Shown piece by piece: positions 10,603-56,632 of a DNA stretch of 64,000 nt. The notes beneath the pieces are model-generated. The model was not told the DNA's origin and searched no databases. It was given only the letters and a program-made list of their open reading frames with translations. The position numbers and the translations under genes are program-made. How positions within the stretch are numbered: position 1 is the first letter of the stretch; the number at the start of each line of letters is the position of its first letter. Source of the stretch: Myxococcaceae bacterium (lineage in GTDB: Bacteria; Myxococcota; Myxococcia; Myxococcales; Myxococcaceae); NCBI GenBank assembly GCA_017881265.1, contig JADGRA010000077.1:1-64000 (forward strand), written 5' to 3'.

Positions 10603-13485
10603 ATGCGAATTGGCCTCTCGGCCCGACCACCGGCCACCCGCTCCTTGGTCCGGACCGCCTTTCTTGCCCTGGCGCTGGGCGCTTGCCACAGCTCGCCCCC
10701 GCCTCCGGCGCCGTTCGTCAAGCCGACGTTCACGTTCGAGAGTGGCCCAGTCCGGCCAGTGGTGTTGTCCCCCGACGGTTCTCGGGTCTTCGTCGCCAAC
10801 ACCTCGAATGGCTCGCTGGACATCTTCAACGTTGCAAGCAGCGGCCTCTCCTTCGCGGCCTCCGTCTACGTCGGGCTCGAACCCGTCGCGGTCGCCGCCC
10901 GCAGCAACACCGAGGTTTGGGTCGTCAACCAGGTGTCGGACAGCGTCAGCATTGTCGACGTCAGCAGCACCCCTCCGCATGTGGCCCGGACGCTCCTCGT
11001 CGGCGACGAACCGAGCGACATCGTCTTCGGTGGTACCGGCGGAAGTCGGGCCTTCATCACCACGGCCCACCGCGGACAACAGCGGACCGACTCCTCCCTG
11101 GCTGGGATTCCGGGTGCCGGGGACCCCCAGCTGACGACTGCCGGCGTGGGTCGCGCAGACGTCTGGGTGTTCGACGCTACCGCGCTCGGCACCAGCGTCG
11201 GTGGAACACCGCTGGCAATCGTCTCGCTCTTTGGTGACACGCCGCGGGCACTCGCCGTCACGCCCGACGGCCACACCGTCTATGTCGCAGTCTTCAAGTC
11301 GGGTAACCAGACGATGGCGACCTCGTCTGAGTTGCCGTGCGATGGCTTCGACACCTCCGACGCAGGGCCTGGCTGCACGGTGCTTGGCGTGACGGTTCCC
11401 GGTGCGCCCCCGGGCCCGGCGACCGACTCTGCCGGTCGCAACGCGCCGAAGGTGGGGCTCCTCCTCAAGACAGACGCCCGTGGCACGTGGCGGGATGTGC
11501 TCGGCCGCGAATGGACCAGCGCAACGGCCTTTGGCTTGCCGGACCAGGACGTCTTCGCAATCGACACGACGACACTGAAGACAACCGCTACATACTCGCG
11601 CGTGGGGACGACGCTGTTCAACCTGGCCGTGAATCCCGCGAGTGGCGTCGTCTATGTCTCCAACACGGAGGCGCGGAATGACCTGCGATTCGAGGGACCC
11701 GGCACTTTCGCGGGTCAGACGCTGCAGGGGCATCTCGCAGAGGCGCGCATCACGGTCCTGAGCGACGGTGGCGTCCAGCCTCGGGCCTTGAACAAGCACA
11801 TCAACTACACGGTGCTGCCGGCGCCAGCCACCACAATGCAGCACAGCCTGTCCATGCCGCTCCAACTGGTGGTCACTACGGACGGGAAAGCCCTCTACGT
11901 GGCGGCCTTCGGGTCATCGAAGGTTGGCGTGTTCCCGGCGGCGGCAATCGAAAACGACTCCTTCGACCCCGTCACGCAGAGCGTGAACTACCTCTCTGTG
12001 AGTGGTGGGGGACCCGGTGGTCTCGCGCTGGACGAGGCCAATCATCGCCTCTACGTCACGACGCGTTTCGACGATGGTCTCTCGGTGATTGACCTCGCTA
12101 CGGGCCTCGAAACTGCGCACCTTCAGCTTGTAAACCCTGAGCCGGCGGCCGTTACGACCGGGCGCCCGTTTCTCTACGACTCGACGCGCACCTCCGCCAA
12201 CGGGGAGGCATCCTGCGCGAGCTGCCACATGTTCGGCGACAAGGACAACTTGGTTTGGGACCTCGGCAATCCGGACGGCGACACCGTGACGACGCCAATC
12301 AACATCAAGCTCAGCGAGGGGGCGGCCACCCAACCAAACATCAACGGGAGCGGCCAGGTGGCCGTGCTCCACCCGATGAAGGGCCCGATGAGCACGCAGA
12401 CTCTACGGGGGCTGGTGAATCACGGCCCAATGCACTGGCGAGGCGACCGGGTGGCGGGCTTCTTCGGCACCGACACGAGGACAGCCCCGCCTTACGACTC
12501 GACGCTAGCCTTCAAGAACTTCATTGTGGCGTTCAACAGCCTGGTCGCGCTTGGCCCCGCCTTTCCCGATGCCGACATGCAGACATTCGCAAACTTCGCA
12601 CTCTCCATCGTCATGCCGCCCAACCCGGTGCGCGCCCTGGACAATTCGCTCAACCCGGCACAGGCGGCGGGCCGGTCGTTCTTCCTTGGCTGTGATGGGC
12701 TCGACAGCGTTACGGGAGTGGCCGTCCAGTGTCCTGACGGCGGTCCGCCGGCGAGCGGCGGTCACTTCGCTGACGGCATCCGAATTCAGACGCTCGGATT
12801 CACCTGCCAGGGCTGCCACGTCTTGAACCCGGCCATGGGCTTCTTTGGGACCGACGGTGAGAGCAGCTTCGAGGCTCTCCCCCAGACGGCGAAAATCCCG
12901 CAACTCCGGAACCTCTACGACAAGGTGGGCATGTTCGGTTCCCCACCAAATCTCCGGACTGTCCCCGGTGACAATGGCTATACGGGCCCTCAGGTGCGCG
13001 GCGTTGGATTCGAGCACGACGGCAGTGTCGACACCCTCTTCCGCTTTCTGCAGGCAAACGTCTTCCAGAGCGCAGACGGCGCGCGCATTGGCTTCGCGGG
13101 GGGCGACCCCCAACGCCGAAACGTCGAGCAGTACCTTCTCGCCTTCGACAGCGACCTGGCACCCATCGTCGGCCAGCAGGTCACCCTTCGCTCGGACAAC
13201 GCCGCGAGCGTTGGACCGCGCATCGACCTCCTGATTGCGCGGGCAAGCACACATTTTGCGTCGCAGATTCTGGGCCCGAATGCGACGGAGTGCGACCTCA
13301 TCGCCCGTGTGGTGGTCGGCGGGGCGGCAAAGACATTCCTGCTGAAGACCGACGGGACCTTCGCGCCGGATGACGGCGCAGCCCTGTCGGATTCGGCGTT
13401 GCGTTCCTTGGCAGCGACGCCGGGGCAGGAGGTGACTTACACCTGCCTGCCTCCCGGCTGGGCCACCCGCCCTGCAACCCCATAA
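10603..13485 (+). CDS. beta-propeller/di-heme cytochrome c lipoprotein
   Basis: A 960-residue protein. ATG 10603 is preceded by AAGGTGGGC and gives a lipoprotein signal (ALALGAC, Cys28). Residues about 40-520 are YVTN/YncE-type propeller repeats (VVLSPDGSRVFVANTS, VAVTPDGHTVYVAVF, GLALDEANHRLYVTTRF). The C-terminal third is cytochrome-like: heme motif CASCH at residue 538, MHWRGDR, and a second motif CQGCH at 735 followed by a di-heme-peroxidase-like end. Such fusions sit at the outer membrane or periplasm and pass electrons; their substrates are not known. It starts 132 bases after the Spy-like gene, so it may share the ECF regulon. A longer start at 10591 is possible but has a weaker ribosome binding site. 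Confidence 0.85.
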   Translation: MRIGLSARPPATRSLVRTAFLALALGACHSSPPPPAPFVKPTFTFESGPVRPVVLSPDGSRVFVANTSNGSLDIFNVASSGLSFAASVYVGLEPVAVAARSNTEVWVVNQVSDSVSIVDVSSTPPHVARTLLVGDEPSDIVFGGTGGSRAFITTAHRGQQRTDSSLAGIPGAGDPQLTTAGVGRADVWVFDATALGTSVGGTPLAIVSLFGDTPRALAVTPDGHTVYVAVFKSGNQTMATSSELPCDGFDTSDAGPGCTVLGVTVPGAPPGPATDSAGRNAPKVGLLLKTDARGTWRDVLGREWTSATAFGLPDQDVFAIDTTTLKTTATYSRVGTTLFNLAVNPASGVVYVSNTEARNDLRFEGPGTFAGQTLQGHLAEARITVLSDGGVQPRALNKHINYTVLPAPATTMQHSLSMPLQLVVTTDGKALYVAAFGSSKVGVFPAAAIENDSFDPVTQSVNYLSVSGGGPGGLALDEANHRLYVTTRFDDGLSVIDLATGLETAHLQLVNPEPAAVTTGRPFLYDSTRTSANGEASCASCHMFGDKDNLVWDLGNPDGDTVTTPINIKLSEGAATQPNINGSGQVAVLHPMKGPMSTQTLRGLVNHGPMHWRGDRVAGFFGTDTRTAPPYDSTLAFKNFIVAFNSLVALGPAFPDADMQTFANFALSIVMPPNPVRALDNSLNPAQAAGRSFFLGCDGLDSVTGVAVQCPDGGPPASGGHFADGIRIQTLGFTCQGCHVLNPAMGFFGTDGESSFEALPQTAKIPQLRNLYDKVGMFGSPPNLRTVPGDNGYTGPQVRGVGFEHDGSVDTLFRFLQANVFQSADGARIGFAGGDPQRRNVEQYLLAFDSDLAPIVGQQVTLRSDNAASVGPRIDLLIARASTHFASQILGPNATECDLIARVVVGGAAKTFLLKTDGTFAPDDGAALSDSALRSLAATPGQEVTYTCLPPGWATRPATP

Positions 13486-16188: not shown

Positions 16189-16731
16189 TCAGTCCTGCAG
16201 TTCCGTGTTCCAGTAGGCCACCGACTGAAGCCACTGCTTCCACGGCTCGGGCATTCCCTTCCGCCACGTGAAGGTGAGGCGGACGACGTCCGGGAGGGAC
16301 TTCGGCTTGGCGGGCGCCTGGACCAGCCTCATCCCGGCCTGGCCGGGTGTACGTCCCCCCTTCCGTTGGTTGCAGGGCGTGCAGGACACCACGACGTTGT
16401 CCCAGGCGGTGTGCCCACCCTGCGCCTTGGGCACGACGTGGTCATAGGTGAAGTCGTGGCGGGGGACGGACCTCGAGCAGTACTGGCACTTGCCCTTGTC
16501 GCGCGTGTAGACGTTTTCGCGGTTGAACTTGATACCCGTCCGCTTCCCCCGGATGGCCCGGAGGAACCGAATGACTGCGGGCACGCGAAACTCGAGCGTC
16601 ACGCTCCGCACCGTCTTGTCCTGGTACTCCTCCACCACTTCCACCTTCCCCTCCCAGAGCAGGGTGATGGCCCGCTGCCAAGTCACGCGAGCGACGGGGA
16701 GGTACCTGATGTCCAGCACGAGTGTTTCCAT
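16189..16731 (-). CDS. HNH endonuclease encoded at the end of the tRNA array
   Basis: A 180-residue HNH nuclease. The zinc-binding ββα-metal core is at residues 82-124: CQYCSRSVPRHDFTYDHVVP supplies the first Cys pair and the catalytic D-H, GGHTAWDNVVVSC gives the central Asn, and CTPCNQRKGGRTP gives the second Cys pair with N-x-R-K. The order C-C-DH-N-C-C-N-K fits chromosomal HNH proteins of the McrA-like type, whose targets are mostly unknown. AAGGAG lies eight bases before ATG 16731. The gene starts 40 bases downstream of the last tRNA and has the same orientation, so one transcript may carry tRNAs and nuclease mRNA. HNH nucleases next to tRNA arrays occur in phages and plasmids; whether this one acts on DNA or RNA is open. 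Confidence 0.9.
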   Translation of the reverse strand: METLVLDIRYLPVARVTWQRAITLLWEGKVEVVEEYQDKTVRSVTLEFRVPAVIRFLRAIRGKRTGIKFNRENVYTRDKGKCQYCSRSVPRHDFTYDHVVPKAQGGHTAWDNVVVSCTPCNQRKGGRTPGQAGMRLVQAPAKPKSLPDVVRLTFTWRKGMPEPWKQWLQSVAYWNTELQD

Positions 16732-16770: not shown

Positions 16771-16859
16771 TGGTACCCCGAGGGAGAGTCGAACTCCCAT
16801 GCCCGTTTGGAAGGGCGCCAGGGTCTGAGCCTGGTGTGTCTGCGTTTCACCATCGGGGC
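16771..16859 (-). tRNA. tRNA-Leu(CAG)
   Basis: Anticodon stem CCAGG/CCTGG around CTCAGAC. Long variable arm GCCC/GGGC, as required for Leu. T arm GGGAG-TTCGACT-CTCCC. The acceptor GCCCCGA pairs with TCGGGGT. CCA is encoded. It is the last tRNA of the array in the direction of transcription. Confidence 0.95.
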
Positions 16860-16865
16860 GTTTGT

Positions 16866-16940
16866 GTACCGGACCAGGGAATCAAACCCTGCGCAGCCTC
16901 CATGTGAGAGAGGCATCACCTTCAGGTGGACTGTCCGGCA
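16866..16940 (-). tRNA. tRNA-Val(CAC), unusual D arm
   Basis: Acceptor TGCCGGA/TCCGGTA, anticodon stem CCTCT/GGAGG around CTCACAT (anticodon CAC), T arm CAGGG-TTTGATT-CCCTG. The D region CACCTGAAGGTG folds as a four-base stem with a four-base loop and lacks the usual A14 and G18G19 pattern. CCA is not encoded. Confidence 0.8.
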
Positions 16941-16941
16941 T

Positions 16942-17014
16942 GTCGTGACGGCAGGAGTCGAACCTGCGCTGGCGGCTTATGAGACCGCTGCCTTTCCGCT
17001 TGGCGACGTCACGA
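16942..17014 (-). tRNA. tRNA-Met(CAT)
   Basis: Acceptor TCGTGAC/GTCACGA is fully paired. Anticodon loop CTCATAA in stem GCGGT/GCCGC; T arm GCAGG-TTCGACT-CCTGC. It pairs fully at 1-72, unlike an initiator. A lysidine-modified Ile(CAT) cannot be excluded. CCA is not encoded. Confidence 0.9.
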
Positions 17015-17017
17015 GGA

Positions 17018-17092
17018 GTGCCCCTGCAGGGATTCGAACCCTGACCTTTCGTTTAGAAGACGAACGACCTTTCCAGTTAATCGACCGGGGCA
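17018..17092 (-). tRNA. tRNA-Arg(TCT)
   Basis: Acceptor TGCCCCG against AGGGGCA (one mismatch at 7-66), anticodon stem TTCGT/ACGAA around CTTCTAA, T arm CAGGG-TTCGAAT-CCCTG. Anticodon TCT reads AGA/AGG, rare Arg codons in a high-GC host. CCA is not encoded. Confidence 0.9.
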
Positions 17093-17093
17093 G

Positions 17094-17162
17094 CACCCCC
17101 AGAGCGAATCGAACGCTCTCACCACGGTTCGTAACCGCGGGCCCGGGTCCATCGGTGGGGGC
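17094..17162 (-). tRNA. tRNA-Arg(ACG)
   Basis: Acceptor GCCCCCA/TGGGGGT, anticodon loop TTACGAA, T arm GAGCG-TTCGATT-CGCTC. It is compact (69 bases). A34 would need deamination to inosine by TadA to read CGC, as in the normal bacterial tRNA-Arg(ACG). CCA is not encoded. Confidence 0.9.
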
Positions 17163-17169
17163 AAACAGT

Positions 17170-17239
17170 TACCCCGTGACCGAGTTGAACGGTCTCGCTC
17201 GCCTTCGGACGGCAAGGTCCAGAATCCGCTGGACGGGGC
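17170..17239 (-). tRNA. tRNA-Arg(CCG)
   Basis: Acceptor GCCCCGT/ACGGGGT, anticodon stem TTGCC/GGCGA around GTCCGAA, T arm GACCG-TTCAACT-CGGTC. Position 32 is G, which is uncommon. CCA is not encoded. Confidence 0.88.
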
Positions 17240-17257
17240 GCGACAGGAAAACAGCAA

Positions 17258-17327
17258 TGGACCGTCCAGGGATTGAACCTGGCGAGCTCGGTGTGCAAAG
17301 CCAAGCGGCACTCCAGTGACACGGCCC
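17258..17327 (-). tRNA. tRNA-Ala(TGC)
   Basis: Acceptor GGGCCGT/ACGGTCC with a G3-T70 wobble pair, the identity element for alanyl-tRNA synthetase. Anticodon loop TTTGCAC, T arm CCAGG-TTCAATC-CCTGG. The anticodon stem has one C-A mismatch next to the loop. CCA is not encoded. Confidence 0.9.
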
Positions 17328-17344
17328 GTCCTTCAAAACCACGT

Positions 17345-17419
17345 GTGCCGCCCGCTGGAATCGAACCAGCGTCTCCCGGGCTTCAACCGGGCGCCTTGAC
17401 CACGTCGGCCAGAGCGGCA
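17345..17419 (-). tRNA. tRNA-Phe(GAA)
   Basis: Acceptor TGCCGCT/GGCGGCA, anticodon stem CCCGG/CCGGG around TTGAAGC, T arm GCTGG-TTCGATT-CCAGC. The discriminator is C rather than the usual A73 of tRNA-Phe. CCA is not encoded. Confidence 0.9.
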
Positions 17420-17425
17420 TTTCAG

Positions 17426-17497
17426 CGCCTCGTACGGGAGTCGAACCCGTCTCACCCAGTAGACAGCCGGGGACCTTCACCAGAGGGACAACGAGGC
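17426..17497 (-). tRNA. tRNA-Asp(GTC)
   Basis: Acceptor GCCTCGT/ACGAGGC, anticodon stem CCCGG/CTGGG around CTGTCTA, T arm ACGGG-TTCGACT-CCCGT, with G73, the aspartyl identity base. It differs throughout from the tRNA-Asp fragment at 2944-3001. CCA is not encoded. Confidence 0.92.
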
Positions 17498-17503
17498 ATT
17501 GAG

Positions 17504-17587
17504 GGCGACCGGCGAGAGTCGAACTCGCTCGAGGCCTTCGCCTCGCGGGGCCACAACCCGGTGGTCCACCGTTGACCGTCGGCCGCC
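17504..17587 (-). tRNA. tRNA-His(GTG) with an extra variable arm
   Basis: Acceptor GCGGCCG/CGGTCGC with a G at -1 opposite C73, the hallmark of tRNA-His. Anticodon loop TTGTGGC, D stem GGTC/GACC, T arm GCGAG-TTCGACT-CTCGC. Between the anticodon and T arms is a five-bp hairpin GAGGC-GAAG-GCCTC, a long variable arm that normal tRNA-His lacks. CCA is not encoded. Confidence 0.9.
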
Positions 17588-17592
17588 GTACA

Positions 17593-17663
17593 TAGGGACG
17601 GTTGGAGTCGAACCAACGTCTTGCGCTTATCAAGCGCACGCTCTGCCATTGAGCGACGTCCCC
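17593..17663 (-). tRNA. tRNA-Ile(GAT)
   Basis: Acceptor GGGGACG/CGTCCCT, D arm with CGCTC, anticodon stem TGCGC/GCGCA around TTGATAA, T arm GTTGG-TTCGACT-CCAAC, A73. CCA is not encoded. A gap of 91 bases with GC-rich hairpins but no tRNA separates it from the preceding tRNA-Glu gene. Confidence 0.93.
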
Positions 17664-17754
17664 ACAAAGTCCGACTGACAGCAGAAGCCCGTTGGGTCAG
17701 CCCGCCCGCTTTCCGCCTGCGCGGGCCAGGCGGCCGCACCCTGCTTCACCAAGA

Positions 17755-17827
17755 AAGCGCCGGGGGGAGTTGAACCCACCGTTCCCGGGTTGAGAACCCA
17801 GTGGCCTGACCGTTGGCCGACGGCGCC
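17755..17827 (-). tRNA. tRNA-Glu(CTC)
   Basis: Acceptor GGCGCCG/CGGCGCT, anticodon stem CTGGG/CCCGG around TTCTCAA, T arm GTGGG-TTCAACT-CCCCC with one mismatch. C34 restricts it to GAG codons. CCA is not encoded. Confidence 0.9.
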
Positions 17828-17890
17828 GTGACCCTCTGCTGTTGGAGCAACCGACGCGTGCCCTTCTCAGAAAGGGTGCGCGCCTTGGAA

Positions 17891-17963
17891 CTGACCGGGC
17901 AGGACTCGAACCTGCGCAGACGCGGGTTAACGGCCCGCCGCTCTTCCGCTGAGCTACCGGTCA
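17891..17963 (-). tRNA. tRNA-Asn(GTT) with C33
   Basis: Acceptor TGACCGG/CCGGTCA, canonical D arm GCTC...GAGC, anticodon stem GCGGG/CCCGC around CCGTTAA, T arm GCAGG-TTCGAGT-CCTGC, G73. Position 33 is C instead of the nearly universal U. A ten-bp hairpin at about 17851-17876 separates it from tRNA-Glu. CCA is not encoded. Confidence 0.9.
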
Positions 17964-17977
17964 ATGTTGCCTGCTTG

Positions 17978-18048
17978 TTCCGGCACAGGGATTCGAACCC
18001 CGATGGGCCGCTTCAAAGACGGCCGTCCTGCCATTAGACGATGCCGGA
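17978..18048 (-). tRNA. tRNA-Gln(TTG)
   Basis: Acceptor TCCGGCA/TGCCGGA, anticodon stem GCCGT/GCGGC around CTTTGAA, T arm CGGGG-TTCGAAT-CCCTG with one wobble, A73. CCA is not encoded. Confidence 0.93.
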
Positions 18049-18053
18049 GTGAG

Positions 18054-18125
18054 CTGGGGCGGAAGGAGTCGAACCTTCATTCCTGGGTTCAGAGCCCAGT
18101 GGCCTGCCATTTGGCCGACGCCCCA
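18054..18125 (-). tRNA. tRNA-Gln(CTG)
   Basis: Acceptor TGGGGCG/CGCCCCA, anticodon stem CTGGG/CCCAG around CTCTGAA, T arm GAAGG-TTCGACT-CCTTC, G73. With the neighbouring Gln(TTG) both Gln codons are covered. CCA is not encoded. Confidence 0.93.
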
Positions 18126-18129
18126 CTGA

Positions 18130-18201
18130 AGCGGGAGGAGGGGGTCGAACCCTCATCGTCGGTTTGGAAGACCGATGCTCTAGCCGTTGAGCTACGCCCG
18201 C
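18130..18201 (-). tRNA. tRNA-Gly(TCC)
   Basis: Acceptor GCGGGCG/CTCCCGC with one mismatch, canonical D arm, anticodon stem TCGGT/ACCGA around CTTCCAA, T arm GAGGG-TTCGACC-CCCTC. CCA is not encoded. Confidence 0.93.
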
Positions 18202-18205
18202 AGAG

Positions 18206-18291
18206 TGGATGGGGTGAGGATTGAACTCACCAATGTCCCGGAGGACGCCGCGGTTACGGCGCGGTGGACCACCCTTGGTCACGTCCCATCC
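18206..18291 (-). tRNA. tRNA-Tyr(GTA) with C33
   Basis: Acceptor GGATGGG/CCCATCC, A73, long variable arm GTCC-TCC-GGGAC as in bacterial class II tRNA-Tyr, T arm GTGAG-TTCAATC-CTCAC. The anticodon loop is CCGTAAC, so position 33 is C, as in the array's tRNA-Asn. CCA is not encoded. Confidence 0.9.
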
Positions 18292-18295
18292 AAAG

Positions 18296-18366
18296 TGGGT
18301 CCTGAGGGGATCGAACCCTCTCCAGCCGGTTAAGAACCGACAGCTCTCCCCTTGAGCTAAAGACCC
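18296..18366 (-). tRNA. tRNA-Lys(CTT)
   Basis: Acceptor GGGTCTT/AGGACCC, D arm AGCTC...GAGCT, anticodon stem GTCGG/CCGGC around TTCTTAA, T arm GAGGG-TTCGATC-CCCTC, A73. CCA is not encoded. An inverted repeat (GGGCCAGCCCGTCC with GGACGGACGGGTGGCCC, about 18373-18407) lies just upstream of the gene. Confidence 0.93.
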
Positions 18367-18455
18367 GAGTTGGGCCAGCCCGTCCGGCGTTGGACGGACG
18401 GGTGGCCCCACTGTCGCTGCTATTCTTTAATTTCAGAGAACACCAACTACTGCAG

Positions 18456-18527
18456 AGCCCCTGCAGGGAATCGAACCCTGACCTTCGGTTTACGAAACCG
18501 ATGCTCGACCAACCGAGCTCCGGGGGC
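18456..18527 (-). tRNA. tRNA-Thr(CGT)
   Basis: Acceptor GCCCCCG/CAGGGGC with one mismatch, D arm AGCTC..., anticodon stem TCGGT/ACCGA around TTCGTAA, T arm CAGGG-TTCGATT-CCCTG. C34 restricts it to ACG. CCA is not encoded. Confidence 0.92.
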
Positions 18528-18528
18528 A

Positions 18529-18599
18529 TGGCAGGCCGCGAAGGGATTGAACCTTCCGAAGCAGGTTTTGGAGACCCGCTCGCGCCCAGCGCGCGGCCT
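18529..18599 (-). tRNA. tRNA-Trp(CCA)
   Basis: Acceptor AGGCCGC/GCGGCCT, G73, anticodon stem CGGGT/ACCTG around CTCCAAA, T arm GAAGG-TTCAATC-CCTTC. CCA is encoded. It is the first tRNA of the array in the direction of transcription. The anticodon is standard CCA, so it would not be expected to read UGA. Confidence 0.92.
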
Positions 18600-18695
18600 A
18601 GAGTGTGGGGGGGGCCGAAATGCGAGAGGCCGGGGACCCCTGCTGGGTCACCCGGCCTCGTGAGCGCCAATCCTTCTGTTGGATTAGCGACTCAA

Positions 18696-18754
18696 GGAGT
18701 CGGGTGCGCCTCGAACGCTCCTGCCCGGATTCTCTTCGGGCAGGGAAACGACTC
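18696..18754 (-). ncRNA. tRNA-like element in the leader of the tRNA array
   Basis: On the minus strand GAGTCGT (5', from 18754) pairs in six of seven positions with CCGACTC, followed by an unpaired C at 18696. Just inside is a T-arm-like hairpin, GAGCG-TTCGAGG-CGCAC, that matches the GTTCRANNC T-loop consensus. Instead of D and anticodon arms there is one eight-bp stem (CCTGCCCG/CGGGCAGG, nine-base loop). The strand CGACTC can alternatively pair with a second GAGTCG immediately downstream (loop CTT), so two exclusive folds exist. It lies between the predicted promoter and the first tRNA. It could be a decayed tRNA or a regulatory or processing element. Confidence 0.4.
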
Positions 18755-18894
18755 GGGCGGCAAGGGATGAAAGCCACGCACACGAGCGGACGGCCGCCGT
18801 TCGATGGGCGTTGGCCCTCGCGGCGGTCTTTCCTCTTGGTGCTTGAAATCGCGTGGTCATCATCGGCTTGCTCCGACTTCCTTTTGCTTGAAGC

Positions 18895-18924
18895 AAGGTA
18901 TTCCCGTCACGGTGGGCGAGTCAA
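18895..18924 (-). promoter_or_regulatory. candidate sigma-70 promoter for the tRNA array
   Basis: On the minus strand TTGACT (18924-18919), 18 bases, then TACCTT (18900-18895). The -35 matches five of six consensus bases, the -10 three of six. A palindrome TTGCTTGAAGCAA (18884-18896) overlaps the -10 edge and could be an operator. Transcription from here would pass the tRNA-like element and the 20 tRNAs. It is the best promoter candidate I found in the leader, but the match is moderate. Confidence 0.4.
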
Positions 18925-19066: not shown

Positions 19067-19095
19067 TTGACATGTTTCTAAAAGAGGCTTATGAG
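19067..19095 (+). promoter_or_regulatory. sigma-70-type promoter
   Basis: A perfect -35 TTGACA (19067-19072), exactly 17 bases, then -10 TATGAG (19090-19095). Transcription should start near 19102 and proceed away from the tRNA array toward the slipin gene. The unusually AT-rich surroundings support promoter function. Confidence 0.65.
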
Positions 19096-19101
19096 CGCGC
19101 T

Positions 19102-19311
19102 TTCTTTCTTTCGAGGCCCATCGTGAAACTCAAGACCAATCGCCAAAGCCCAAGAGATTCATTCCTCGCAAGCAATTGCTTGCGCAGGTCCGGCCTCGGT
19201 CTGGGCGTCGTGACCTCACCTTCGGGAGGCAGTCGCTAGGCGTTCACGCCAACGCGCGCCCTTCACCGGAGGCCGGGTTCCCGACAAAGGAACCCGGCCT
19301 TCTTCGTTTTT
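19102..19311 (+). ncRNA. candidate short RNA between a strong promoter and an intrinsic terminator
   Basis: A unit of about 210 bases bounded by the promoter at 19067-19095 and a strong terminator at 19270-19311. It contains a perfect 18-bp palindrome, CGCAAGCAATTGCTTGCG at 19167-19184, which would form a hairpin or protein site. The only small frame (GTG 19131, ending near 19244) lacks a ribosome binding site and protein-like features. No known RNA family is recognised. It may be a small RNA or an attenuated leader for the tRNA-Pro-like and slipin genes downstream. Confidence 0.4.
19270..19311 (+). terminator. Rho-independent terminator
   Basis: A perfect 11-bp stem, GGCCGGGTTCC (19271-19281) with GGAACCCGGCC (19289-19299), loop CGACAAA, followed by TTCTTCGTTTTT. 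An extra A-T pair extends the stem. This is a textbook plus-strand intrinsic terminator although no protein gene precedes it. Confidence 0.85.
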
Positions 19312-19462
19312 GGCTTTACAAGAATATGGCGGTGCGCCCATGCGGCGTCGCGGAGTCGTCCGGAAGCGGCCGGTCTCAACAGCTGGCCGTCCTTCACGGT
19401 CGTCACTCACGCGCGTTCCGCGCCTCGGGCTCCGCTCGGCAATGAGACCGGCCGTGGACGGA

Positions 19463-19533
19463 CTCGACAAAGCTCATTGGTAGAGCACTGGACTTGGAAT
19501 CCAGAGGAGAGGGTTCAAATCCCTCACTCAGCA
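19463..19533 (+). tRNA. tRNA-Pro(TGG)-like gene with unpaired acceptor stem
   Basis: The D arm GCTC-ATTGGTA-GAGC, anticodon arm CTGGA-CTTGGAA-TCCAG (anticodon TGG) and T arm GAGGG-TTCAAAT-CCCTC are all perfect. The 3' acceptor strand is ACTCAGC, but the 5' strand in place (CTCGACA) pairs in at most three of seven positions where GCTGAGT is expected. CCA is not encoded. Pro is one of the three amino acids missing from the minus-strand array. It could be a 5'-damaged tRNA gene, a tRNA-like regulator or a tRNA needing 5' editing. It lies 293 bases upstream of the slipin gene, same strand. Confidence 0.65.
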
Positions 19534-19825: not shown

Positions 19826-20914
19826 ATGCGAATCGACATTTCCCTGAAGGAGCGCGTCCTGGTCTACGTGGACGGCGAGCCGGTGCGCTACCTGGGCCCG
19901 GGTCGTCACCGGCTGCGGGTTCCGTTCTGGCGTGAGGCGGAGGCCGAGCGCTTCGACACCGACGCGCTGATGGCCGACCTCCGCGCCGAGGCGCTGGCCC
20001 TGGTGCCGGCCAGCGACCTTCGCCGGCTGACGCTGGCGCCGGACGAGCGGGCCGTGGTCAGCCGGAAGGGCCGCCCGGTGAAGTGGCTGCAGAGCGGCGA
20101 GCGGCAGGTCTGGACCGTCGACCCGAGCGTGACCGTCGAGGTCATCGACGTCTCGGGGGTGGCCGCCGAGCCACTGCGCGACGAGGTCAGGGCCCTGGTG
20201 CCGGCGACCGACTACGTCGAGGCGACCGCCGCCGAGGGCACCACCGTGGTCCGTTACGTCGACGGCGCGCTCGACGCCGTCCTCGGCCCGGGCCGTCATG
20301 CCGCCTGGACGGTGCGCCGCAAGGTTAACCTCGCGGTCATCGACCTGCGGGAGCACCAGCTCGCCGTCAACGGCCAAGAGGTGATGACCAAGGACCGGGT
20401 GTCCCTGCGCTTGAACCTCAGCGCGGCCTGGCGGGTGGCTGACCCGCGTCGGCTGGCGACGGTGGCGCGCGCGCCGGACGAGGTCCTCTACGTAGCGGTG
20501 CAGCTGGCCGCCCGCGAGGCCGTCTCCACGCGCACGCTGGACGAGCTGCTCGCAGCGCGCGAGCAGCTGGGGCTGCACCTGGCGCCCACCGTGGCGCAGC
20601 GTGCAGCCACCGTCGGGCTGGAGCTGCTGGACCTGGGCGTGAAGGACCTCGTCCTCCCGGGTGAGATGAAGACGCTGCTCAACCGGGTCATCGAGGCACA
20701 GAAGGAGGCGGAGGCCAACGTCATCTTCCGGCGGGAGGAGACGGCGGCCACGCGCTCCATGGCGCAGACGGCCAAGGTCCTGGCCGAGAACCCGCTCGTC
20801 GTCCGCCTGAAGGAGCTCGAGGCGTACAAGGAGCTGGCGGCCAAGGTGGGCCAGGTGCACCTCGTCCTCGGCGAGGGCGCCCTGCCGCAGCTGCAGCTGC
20901 AGCTGAAGACGTGA
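19826..20914 (+). CDS. slipin-like SPFH/band-7 family protein
   Basis: A 362-residue protein. ATG 19826 is preceded by AGGAGGAG. The N-terminus has two repeats of a V.Y.DG...LGPGRH pattern (VLVYVDGEPVRYLGPGRH and VVRYVDGALDAVLGPGRH). The SPFH domain follows at about residues 165-300 (VIDLREHQLAVNGQEVMTKD, RVSLRLNLSAAWRVADPRRL, LQLAAREAVSTRTLDELLAA-type text, GLELLDLGVKDLVLPGEM). The C-terminus is a Glu/Ala/Lys coiled coil. It lacks a hydrophobic hairpin at the N-terminus. SPFH proteins form membrane-associated oligomeric scaffolds. Slipins occur in some bacterial RNA-repair loci with RtcB (as I recall), which makes the tRNA neighbourhood interesting, but no ligase is here. Confidence 0.85.
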   Translation: MRIDISLKERVLVYVDGEPVRYLGPGRHRLRVPFWREAEAERFDTDALMADLRAEALALVPASDLRRLTLAPDERAVVSRKGRPVKWLQSGERQVWTVDPSVTVEVIDVSGVAAEPLRDEVRALVPATDYVEATAAEGTTVVRYVDGALDAVLGPGRHAAWTVRRKVNLAVIDLREHQLAVNGQEVMTKDRVSLRLNLSAAWRVADPRRLATVARAPDEVLYVAVQLAAREAVSTRTLDELLAAREQLGLHLAPTVAQRAATVGLELLDLGVKDLVLPGEMKTLLNRVIEAQKEAEANVIFRREETAATRSMAQTAKVLAENPLVVRLKELEAYKELAAKVGQVHLVLGEGALPQLQLQLKT

Positions 20915-55483: not shown

Positions 55484-56632
55484 TCAGCTTTCCACGTCCG
55501 TCAGGCGGCAGATGAATCCCCATCCGCCGCCGAGTTCGCTGACCGCCAGCGTCAATTCATTGTCACCCTTCTTCAAGGGGAGGTAGACGGCGTCATTCTC
55601 CGAGTTGACGATACCGAGGAAGGCCGGGTCACGGAAATTCTGAGCGCTCCGGCCCCGGAAGAGAATCCTGCCATTCAAGAAGACGCTGACGTCATCGCTG
55701 TAGCCGATGGAGAGCTTCTTCACCTGTTCGCGGTCAGAAGTGATGGTGGTCCGCGCATAGACGACCTTCATCCCCGGCTGAGGTTCCAAGCGCTTCGAGA
55801 AGTCGTTCGCGAACGAAACTCTCGGGTGCGGGCTCTCGCGATAGCGATTGATGAGCACGAAGCCAGGGGCCTCCGCCTCCACGTCCTGCCAGCGGATGGC
55901 ATCCGACTCAGTCGGGGAAAGCGGATGCTCCAGGTTGCGTGCGAGCGCGTCGTACGAAGGGGACAGGCTCCACCGGGTCAGAGTGCCCAGCGGCATCGGT
56001 GGCTGGTGCCGCTCCCAGGGTGCATCGGGCGTCGCGCGAATCGTGAAGTTCGAAAAATAAGTCGCGCCCGTCAGCACGTAGAGGGCCACCTGGCCCTTCT
56101 GGATGCCGCTCTTCAAGTCATTCATGACCAGCGCGGGTTTCTCCATGTCCTTGACGTACATCTTGGCCTGCGCACCCCTCACCTCCAGCCGCAGGTGGAA
56201 CCAGACGTCCCTGGGGATGTCGACCGCGCCGGTGAAGCCCGGCCCGTTGAAGATTTGCCAGATGAGGCCCGTGTTGAGAACGGGCGTGTACTGCATGGCG
56301 TCGGGCAGCCCGGACTTGTGTTGGCGGAGATAGACCACCTCGCCGAAGGCGCCGTCGTTGGCAATCCGGAACTGAATGCCGAAAAAACCCCGACTTGCGG
56401 GCGTGGCGACATCCACATCGATGACACCGTCCCGCATCTCCAGGTCCTTCACGACGGCCGCGCCGCCATCGAGGAAGAGGCATGTGCGGCCCTGGTACTC
56501 CGCCGCCTTGGCCTGGCCTTCCAGCTCCCAGCGCGGCGAGTCCGGCGGGAAGACGAGCGTCTTAGGCGTCTGGGCAGGCGCTGTTGACCCAAAGAGTAGC
56601 CCAAGAGCGCAAAGAGCTAGATGTCGCACCAT
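55484..56632 (-). CDS. secreted DUF1080-like beta-sandwich protein
   Basis: A 382-residue exported protein. ATG 56632 has GGAAGGTGG eight bases upstream and gives the signal MVRHLALCALGLLFGSTAPA. Residues about 35-195 form a concanavalin-like domain as in DUF1080/3-keto-glycoside hydrolases (FLDGGAAVVKDLEMRDGVID, GFFGIQFRIANDGAFGEVVY, VWFHLRLEVRGAQAKMYVKD). The C-terminal domain (KKLSIGYSDDVSVFLNGRIL, KGDNELTLAVSELGGGWGFI) is a second sandwich like those that bind sugars. It probably acts on or binds a carbohydrate outside the cell. Catalytic residues are not identified. Confidence 0.75.
   Translation of the reverse strand: MVRHLALCALGLLFGSTAPAQTPKTLVFPPDSPRWELEGQAKAAEYQGRTCLFLDGGAAVVKDLEMRDGVIDVDVATPASRGFFGIQFRIANDGAFGEVVYLRQHKSGLPDAMQYTPVLNTGLIWQIFNGPGFTGAVDIPRDVWFHLRLEVRGAQAKMYVKDMEKPALVMNDLKSGIQKGQVALYVLTGATYFSNFTIRATPDAPWERHQPPMPLGTLTRWSLSPSYDALARNLEHPLSPTESDAIRWQDVEAEAPGFVLINRYRESPHPRVSFANDFSKRLEPQPGMKVVYARTTITSDREQVKKLSIGYSDDVSVFLNGRILFRGRSAQNFRDPAFLGIVNSENDAVYLPLKKGDNELTLAVSELGGGWGFICRLTDVES

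Follow-up and report, generated by a model that had tools for sequence, protein, structure and literature searches.

A tRNA gene array of phage affinity and a neighbouring slipin-linked tRNA mimic in a Myxococcaceae bacterium

The window analysed here, the first 64,000 nucleotides (nt) of contig JADGRA010000077.1 from a Myxococcaceae bacterium (assembly GCA_017881265.1), contains a minus-strand array of 20 transfer RNA (tRNA) genes that ends in an HNH endonuclease gene. Adjoining it on the right, and absent from the original prediction made for this sequence, is a slipin gene in head-to-head orientation, accompanied by a tRNA-like element, hereafter the mimic. On balance, we think it probable that the array was acquired, is of a kind carried by large tailed phages and serves as a reserve, used with RtcB and slipin when tRNAs are damaged; the mimic would act as bait or sensor. 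Under this proposal, tRNA damage would induce the array, and its tRNAs would decode as a reserve during cleavage of the cell's own tRNAs or a block in translation, alongside RNA repair by RtcB and the slipin membrane protein. The mimic, heading the slipin transcript, would present a fast-evolving anticodon loop on a fixed tRNA body, for which the simplest role would be that of a bait or sensor for nucleases cutting anticodon loops.

Arrays of tRNA genes with HNH genes are already known; in the present group, a promoter-like motif links such arrays with RNA-repair genes. In the literature searched, which covered few subscription journals, we found no description of the leader, the Myxococcaceae motif common to RNA-repair genes or the slipin-linked mimic, and all three appear to be new. 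Because the group includes the laboratory organism Myxococcus xanthus, array function is directly testable.

A supplementary tRNA set

The array occupies positions 16771–18599 (1.83 kb, 10.9 genes/kb) and encodes tRNAs for 17 amino acids in the order Trp, Thr, Lys, Tyr, Gly, Gln, Gln, Asn, Glu, Ile, His, Asp, Phe, Ala, Arg, Arg, Arg, Met, Val, Leu, followed by the HNH gene; none for Ser, Pro or Cys lies within it. Spacing is 13 bases or less in 16 of the 19 gaps and 62–90 bases in the remaining three, and CCA is encoded only by the Trp and Leu genes, the first and last. With default settings ARAGORN recovered 15 of the 20 genes, all on the minus strand, and a lowered threshold gave the other five, which are low-scoring, each fill a gap, and have like isotypes at like places in relatives. 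The Rfam tRNA model at its gathering score found 12 genes in the window, to which a whole-genome search added Asp. A chance origin of the 20 predictions is excluded. The original prediction had described the array in the same way, down to the HNH gene at its end, the two encoded CCA ends and the anticodons with C at position 34 (C34) for Leu, Val, Glu, Gln, Lys, Thr and Arg, and the ARAGORN, Rfam and PF14279 results and the sequence itself agree with it.

The window's genome (4.4 Mb in 81 contigs, 96% complete) carries 41 distinct tRNA genes outside the array, as found by whole-genome search. For 17 of the 20 array genes there is a copy elsewhere with the same anticodon, to which the array gene is just 58–78% identical. 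For Trp(CCA), Ile(GAT) and Ala(TGC) the 81-contig assembly contains no second copy outside the array. These three cases are probably assembly gaps, because contig C77 stops soon past Thr(GGT), which is usually followed by tuf and, after it, Trp, and because no tRNAs of ribosomal RNA operons were recovered from the assembly. The findings support a supplementary rather than essential tRNA set, as the original prediction had proposed; its own test, whether these are the only copies in the organism, comes out negative for 17 genes, the three just named falling in likely assembly gaps. One might instead suppose that the array, during normal growth, provides codon-specific tRNAs, many of them C34, for better translation of GC-rich genes, and such anticodons do suit a window with 67% guanine plus cytosine. 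We consider this very improbable, since nearly all have housekeeping genes of the same anticodon and the Anabaena tRNA operon is silent in normal growth (PMC10272220).

At its size the array lies within the definition of tRNA array units as at least 20 tRNA genes at a density of at least 2 per kb (Tran 2016, as relayed in PMC5966550). Such units occur in Mycobacterium (PMC5966550) and on giant linear plasmids of M. avium (PMC12803027). Shared with them are the number of genes, the coverage of nearly all amino acids, redundancy with the chromosome, the HNH gene, a common but not obligatory part of such units, and an isotype order in common with phages. To judge from the portions available of these sources, the present case differs in its Myxococcota host, in the slipin unit with a mimic alongside the window array and, in relatives, in a leader open reading frame (ORF) with a hairpin and a promoter-like motif common to RNA-repair genes.

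Both default ARAGORN and Rfam support Thr(CGT) (18455–18527), Lys(CTT) (18295–18366), Gly(TCC) (18130–18201), Gln(CTG) (18053–18125), Gln(TTG) (17977–18048), Asn(GTT) (17890–17964), Glu(CTC) (17755–17827), Ile(GAT) (17592–17664), Phe(GAA) (17345–17418), Arg(TCT) (17018–17091), Met(CAT) (16942–17013) and the terminal Leu(CAG) (16771–16859; 45.9 bits). Default ARAGORN also gave Trp(CCA) (18529–18599), His(GTG) (17503–17586) and Asp(GTC) (17425–17497), the last scoring 35.4 bits in the whole-genome Rfam search. The lowered threshold added Tyr(GTA) (18207–18289), Ala(TGC) (17258–17331), Arg(ACG) (17093–17162), Val(CAC) (16866–16939) and the weakest prediction, Arg(CCG), at about 17168–17250 (17170–17239 in -mt mode). 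Lying 3' of the array on the same strand, the HNH gene (16189–16731) is intact and encodes 180 residues with an HNH_5 domain (PF14279, 9.5e-16; phrog_16726 HNH, 1.6e-32).

Phage affinity of the window array

A set of 84,980 bacterial and archaeal genomes, together with IMG/VR, supplied relatives of the HNH protein, and ARAGORN was run over all loci. In the resulting tree the window HNH clusters with viral contig L168 and genome G010 (locus L061) with support of 100/95, near viral contigs L169–L172 and outside the clade formed by the arrays of Archangium, Hyalangium, Myxococcus and Corallococcus. It is 61–68% identical to array HNH proteins on viral contigs, and 67–68% to those of L168 and L169. 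Gene order points the same way: 18 of the 20 window tRNAs follow the isotype order of the L169 array (41 tRNAs on a 196-kb viral contig), compared with a mean of 8.5 after shuffling, and a longest common order of 18 was reached in 0 of 2000 shuffles. Viral contigs L168–L172 are 100–210 kb long, with weak terminase matches in four of the five and weak tail-sheath matches in three, and some of their neighbour genes fall in phage families. An array inside a resident prophage should have phage structural genes around it; among the neighbour genes searched beside the window array none was a phage gene, all having bacterial matches or no match.

Arrays or array remnants with a related HNH gene are present in Archangium, Hyalangium, Myxococcus, Pyxidicoccus and Corallococcus; because their HNH tree broadly tracks the genera, these resident arrays look vertically inherited. 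The HNH tree and the isotype collinearity together support the view that the window array belongs to a phage-type lineage, separate from that of the resident arrays, and that this copy was acquired independently of them. The original reading of a transferred second set is therefore upheld in part, the second set as such and the transfer for the window copy. As to whether close relatives carry the array in the same place, which it had held would count against acquisition, relatives do have arrays, though of another lineage, so that this objection applies only by half. For the tRNA clusters of jumbo phages, a role in offsetting attacks by the host on tRNA has been proposed (PMC7824862). The resemblance lies in the many tRNAs and the large phage genomes; unlike those clusters, the window array sits on a bacterial contig among ordinary flanking genes.

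Some further loci turned up in this survey. More distant HNH relatives (L137–L159), in Myxococcota, Thermodesulfobacteriota and Acidobacteriota, lie 120–180 nt past a single tRNA gene (Arg CCT, Pro TGG or Val GAC). Locus L109 (BNCN01000002.1), labelled Comamonas sp. KCTC 72670, has a Myxococcus-type array, leader and HNH gene and is probably a mislabelled Myxococcus. On viral contig L169, a phrog_850 RNA-binding protein gene (11208–12851) lies about 2 kb past the array HNH gene.

Leader, shared motif and RNA-repair genes

The leader of Myxococcaceae arrays has a constant layout, in which GTCAGG-N15/16-CGT[C/A] is followed by a short ORF of 38–62 codons with a strong Shine-Dalgarno sequence (ATG 51–53 nt past the motif start), a terminator-like hairpin 28–43 nt past the ORF stop and the first tRNA. 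In the form GTCAGG-N14..17-CGT[CA], the motif is present in 24 of 29 arrays tested, including all 24 of the resident Myxococcaceae lineage, and the strict GTCAGG-CGT[CA] motif precedes the slipin unit at 24 of 38 loci; about 0.013 occurrences per 330 nt are expected. When relaxed to GTCAG, it was found before one ortholog group of RtcB (9/9), RlaP (9/10) and one R2K_3 group (6/7), and before none of 10 R2K paralogs. A reversed-pattern control in five genomes gave 16 hits against 46 true ones; additional hits, each in one or few genomes, include NADAR, YqeY and DUF7873 genes. Judged by shape alone, the motif may be an extracytoplasmic-function sigma promoter. Pfam names RlaP for RNA repair. For the R2K enzymes, a role as peptide ligases with translation factors as substrates has been predicted (PMC7824862).

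Because this motif is also found before slipin, RlaP and one group each of RtcB and R2K, the arrays of the relatives seem to be part of an RNA-repair regulon, for which Anabaena offers a parallel. In that organism the repressor TrcR governs RtcB, a slipin gene, an HNH gene and the trn operon of tRNA genes, and this operon responds to antibiotics that target translation (PMC10272220). The same four components may likewise be joined by regulation here, in relatives; the signals differ, with a repressor and an 8-bp site in Anabaena and a −35/−10-like GTCAGG-N15/16-CGTC in the relatives. The original suggestion that the array may be induced under stress receives indirect support from the motif in relatives and from the Anabaena case.

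Several observations weigh against our proposal of a damage-induced reserve. The GTCAGG-CGTC motif is absent before both the array and the slipin gene in the window, and neither RlaP nor R2K_3 has a match in the window's genome, so that the regulon link rests on relatives; the related genomes in the motif counts are, moreover, not independent samples. A TTGACT box with a poor −10 element (18896–18924, minus) is a tentative array promoter and a poor candidate. Downstream of it, on the same strand, are a candidate leader ORF of 59 codons with a weak Shine-Dalgarno sequence (18684–18863), the counterpart of the relatives' ORFs, and, 24 nt past its stop and just 5' of the first tRNA, a terminator-like hairpin (GAGGCCGGGTGACCC..GGGGTCCCCGGCCTC; 18626–18659) like that at the same site in relatives' arrays. 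In folding tests with a ribosome placed at each leader codon, this hairpin and those of nearly all Myxococcaceae formed regardless of ribosome position. Finally, Corallococcus arrays (L104–L117) are often down to Trp or Tyr-Trp and retain leader ORF, hairpin, motif and HNH gene, which fits a decaying or a selfish unit equally.

Two rivals draw on these same data. The array may be a decaying passenger of a phage, plasmid or similar element, its tRNAs once useful to that element and now eroding; its phage affinity, the low-scoring members, the three gaps of 62–90 bases (two at places where relatives have Pro and Cys genes), the lack of a good array promoter in the window and the Corallococcus remnants are all consistent with this. 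We nevertheless regard decay as unlikely, given that 20 tRNA folds are still recognisable, that the HNH gene is intact and that leader, motif and HNH are conserved across Myxococcaceae genera. Alternatively, a selfish HNH homing element could target, carry or reshuffle tRNA genes, with the tRNAs as hitchhikers. The HNH gene is the most constant part of the unit, its relatives lie 90–190 nt past single tRNAs of varied identity in many Myxococcota and other bacteria, and in mycobacterial arrays HNH genes outnumber all other protein genes and have been linked to repertoire diversity (PMC5966550). Homing would leave unexplained the leader ORF, the hairpin and a motif common to RtcB, slipin, RlaP and R2K, and we judge it still less probable than decay.

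The folding results also bear on simple transcription attenuation, which they do not support as a general leader mechanism: a ribosome-dependent switch was found only in L129 and L133 (0.85 versus 0.16–0.17) and partly in L061. In L129 and L133, from other Myxococcales, the arrangement about 60–90 nt 5' of the first tRNA resembles a textbook attenuator, in which a hairpin starting from the leader stop codon excludes the terminator, and one of the two leader peptides (48 residues) contains all 20 amino acids. That leader peptides in general sample all amino acids is suggestive only, because the background gene calls are rough, the lineages are related and the window leader is unremarkable (18 residue kinds, P 0.27). 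Leaders of about 50 residues mostly contain 16–20 kinds, against about 15.8 expected; three have all 20 (P 0.002–0.005 each), and Glu is depleted to 0.16-fold. A promoter of the sigma54/RtcR type was likewise rejected, as no −24/−12 consensus match precedes the slipin gene or the array.

In the window's genome RtcB (L354, G000:C3; 54758–55849, minus) lies about 150 nt downstream of the housekeeping tRNA-Thr(CGT) gene (56003–56074, minus). In G014 and G022, RtcB is near tRNA-Gln(TTG).

The slipin-linked tRNA mimic

The mimic lies about 310–500 nt upstream of a slipin ortholog in most Myxococcaceae genomes examined, and also in G036, from another family. Mapped on the slipin tree, its D and T arms have undergone about 1.5 changes per site and the anticodon stem 2.2, compared with 11, 14 and 17 changes at anticodon positions 34, 35 and 36. 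Near-identical slipins can accompany different anticodons (GAA in L252 and GAT in L254). With loop borders set by a simple pairing rule, 39 of 43 distinct mimics have a seven-base loop, and all 39 of these carry an ordinary sense anticodon, of 19 different kinds, with none having A34 and none reading a stop codon; loops are shortened in the Myxococcus xanthus group. The anticodon changes are unlikely to come from gene conversion with ordinary tRNA genes as donors, because they affect the loop and largely spare the anticodon stem. Fast change that falls mainly on the anticodon of a conserved mimic, and still leaves it an ordinary one, would be an uncommon sign of a conflict over tRNA.

In the window, the mimic (19461–19532, plus, anticodon TGG; Rfam tRNA 51.5 bits, and 70.8 bits at 19462–19533 with model R1) lies 293 nt upstream of the slipin gene. 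It keeps the D, anticodon and T arms and lacks CCA; it aligns to positions 9–63 only of the Rfam model, and it lacks the paired 7-bp acceptor stem of a functional tRNA. This stem is poorly conserved in general, with pairing possible in some Myxococcus copies. The slipin gene (19826–20914, plus) encodes a Band_7 protein of 362 residues (PF01145, 2e-30) with orthologs 60–71% identical in many Myxococcaceae. Mimic and slipin are probably carried on one transcript, starting from a sigma70-like promoter (TTGACA-N17-TATGAG, 19067–19095); between promoter and mimic are a weak candidate leader ORF of 38 codons with a GTG start, seen in a single genome (19123–19239), and a terminator-like hairpin with a T-rich run (19268–19311), all on the plus strand. 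A second physical link between array and slipin units is found in G010, where a truncated slipin gene lies within the array, between Tyr and Leu.

The mimic may be read as a bait or sensor for anticodon nucleases, its anticodon diversifying to track nuclease specificity, within one Myxococcaceae tRNA-damage response that would comprise the array, RtcB, RlaP, R2K ATP-grasp and slipin; we offer this fuller version tentatively, as a possibility. A related case is the rsr-yrlBA-rtcBA operon, whose Y RNA, it has been proposed, might inhibit an anticodon nuclease by competition (PMC7790460), and which likewise places a tRNA-like RNA in an RNA-repair setting. The mimic differs in preceding slipin and in having a full anticodon arm with a hypervariable anticodon. 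Its identity as a Y RNA was rejected, because the Rsr/TROVE partner is absent from its own genome and gave one marginal hit among 96 genomes. For the Anabaena system, no tRNA mimic is described in the accessible part of the report (PMC10272220).

In two genomes, the mimic anticodon corresponds to an amino acid missing from the same genome's array, namely Pro (TGG) in the window (19461–19532) and Ser (TGA) at L353:7663–7737, a match that may be due to chance.

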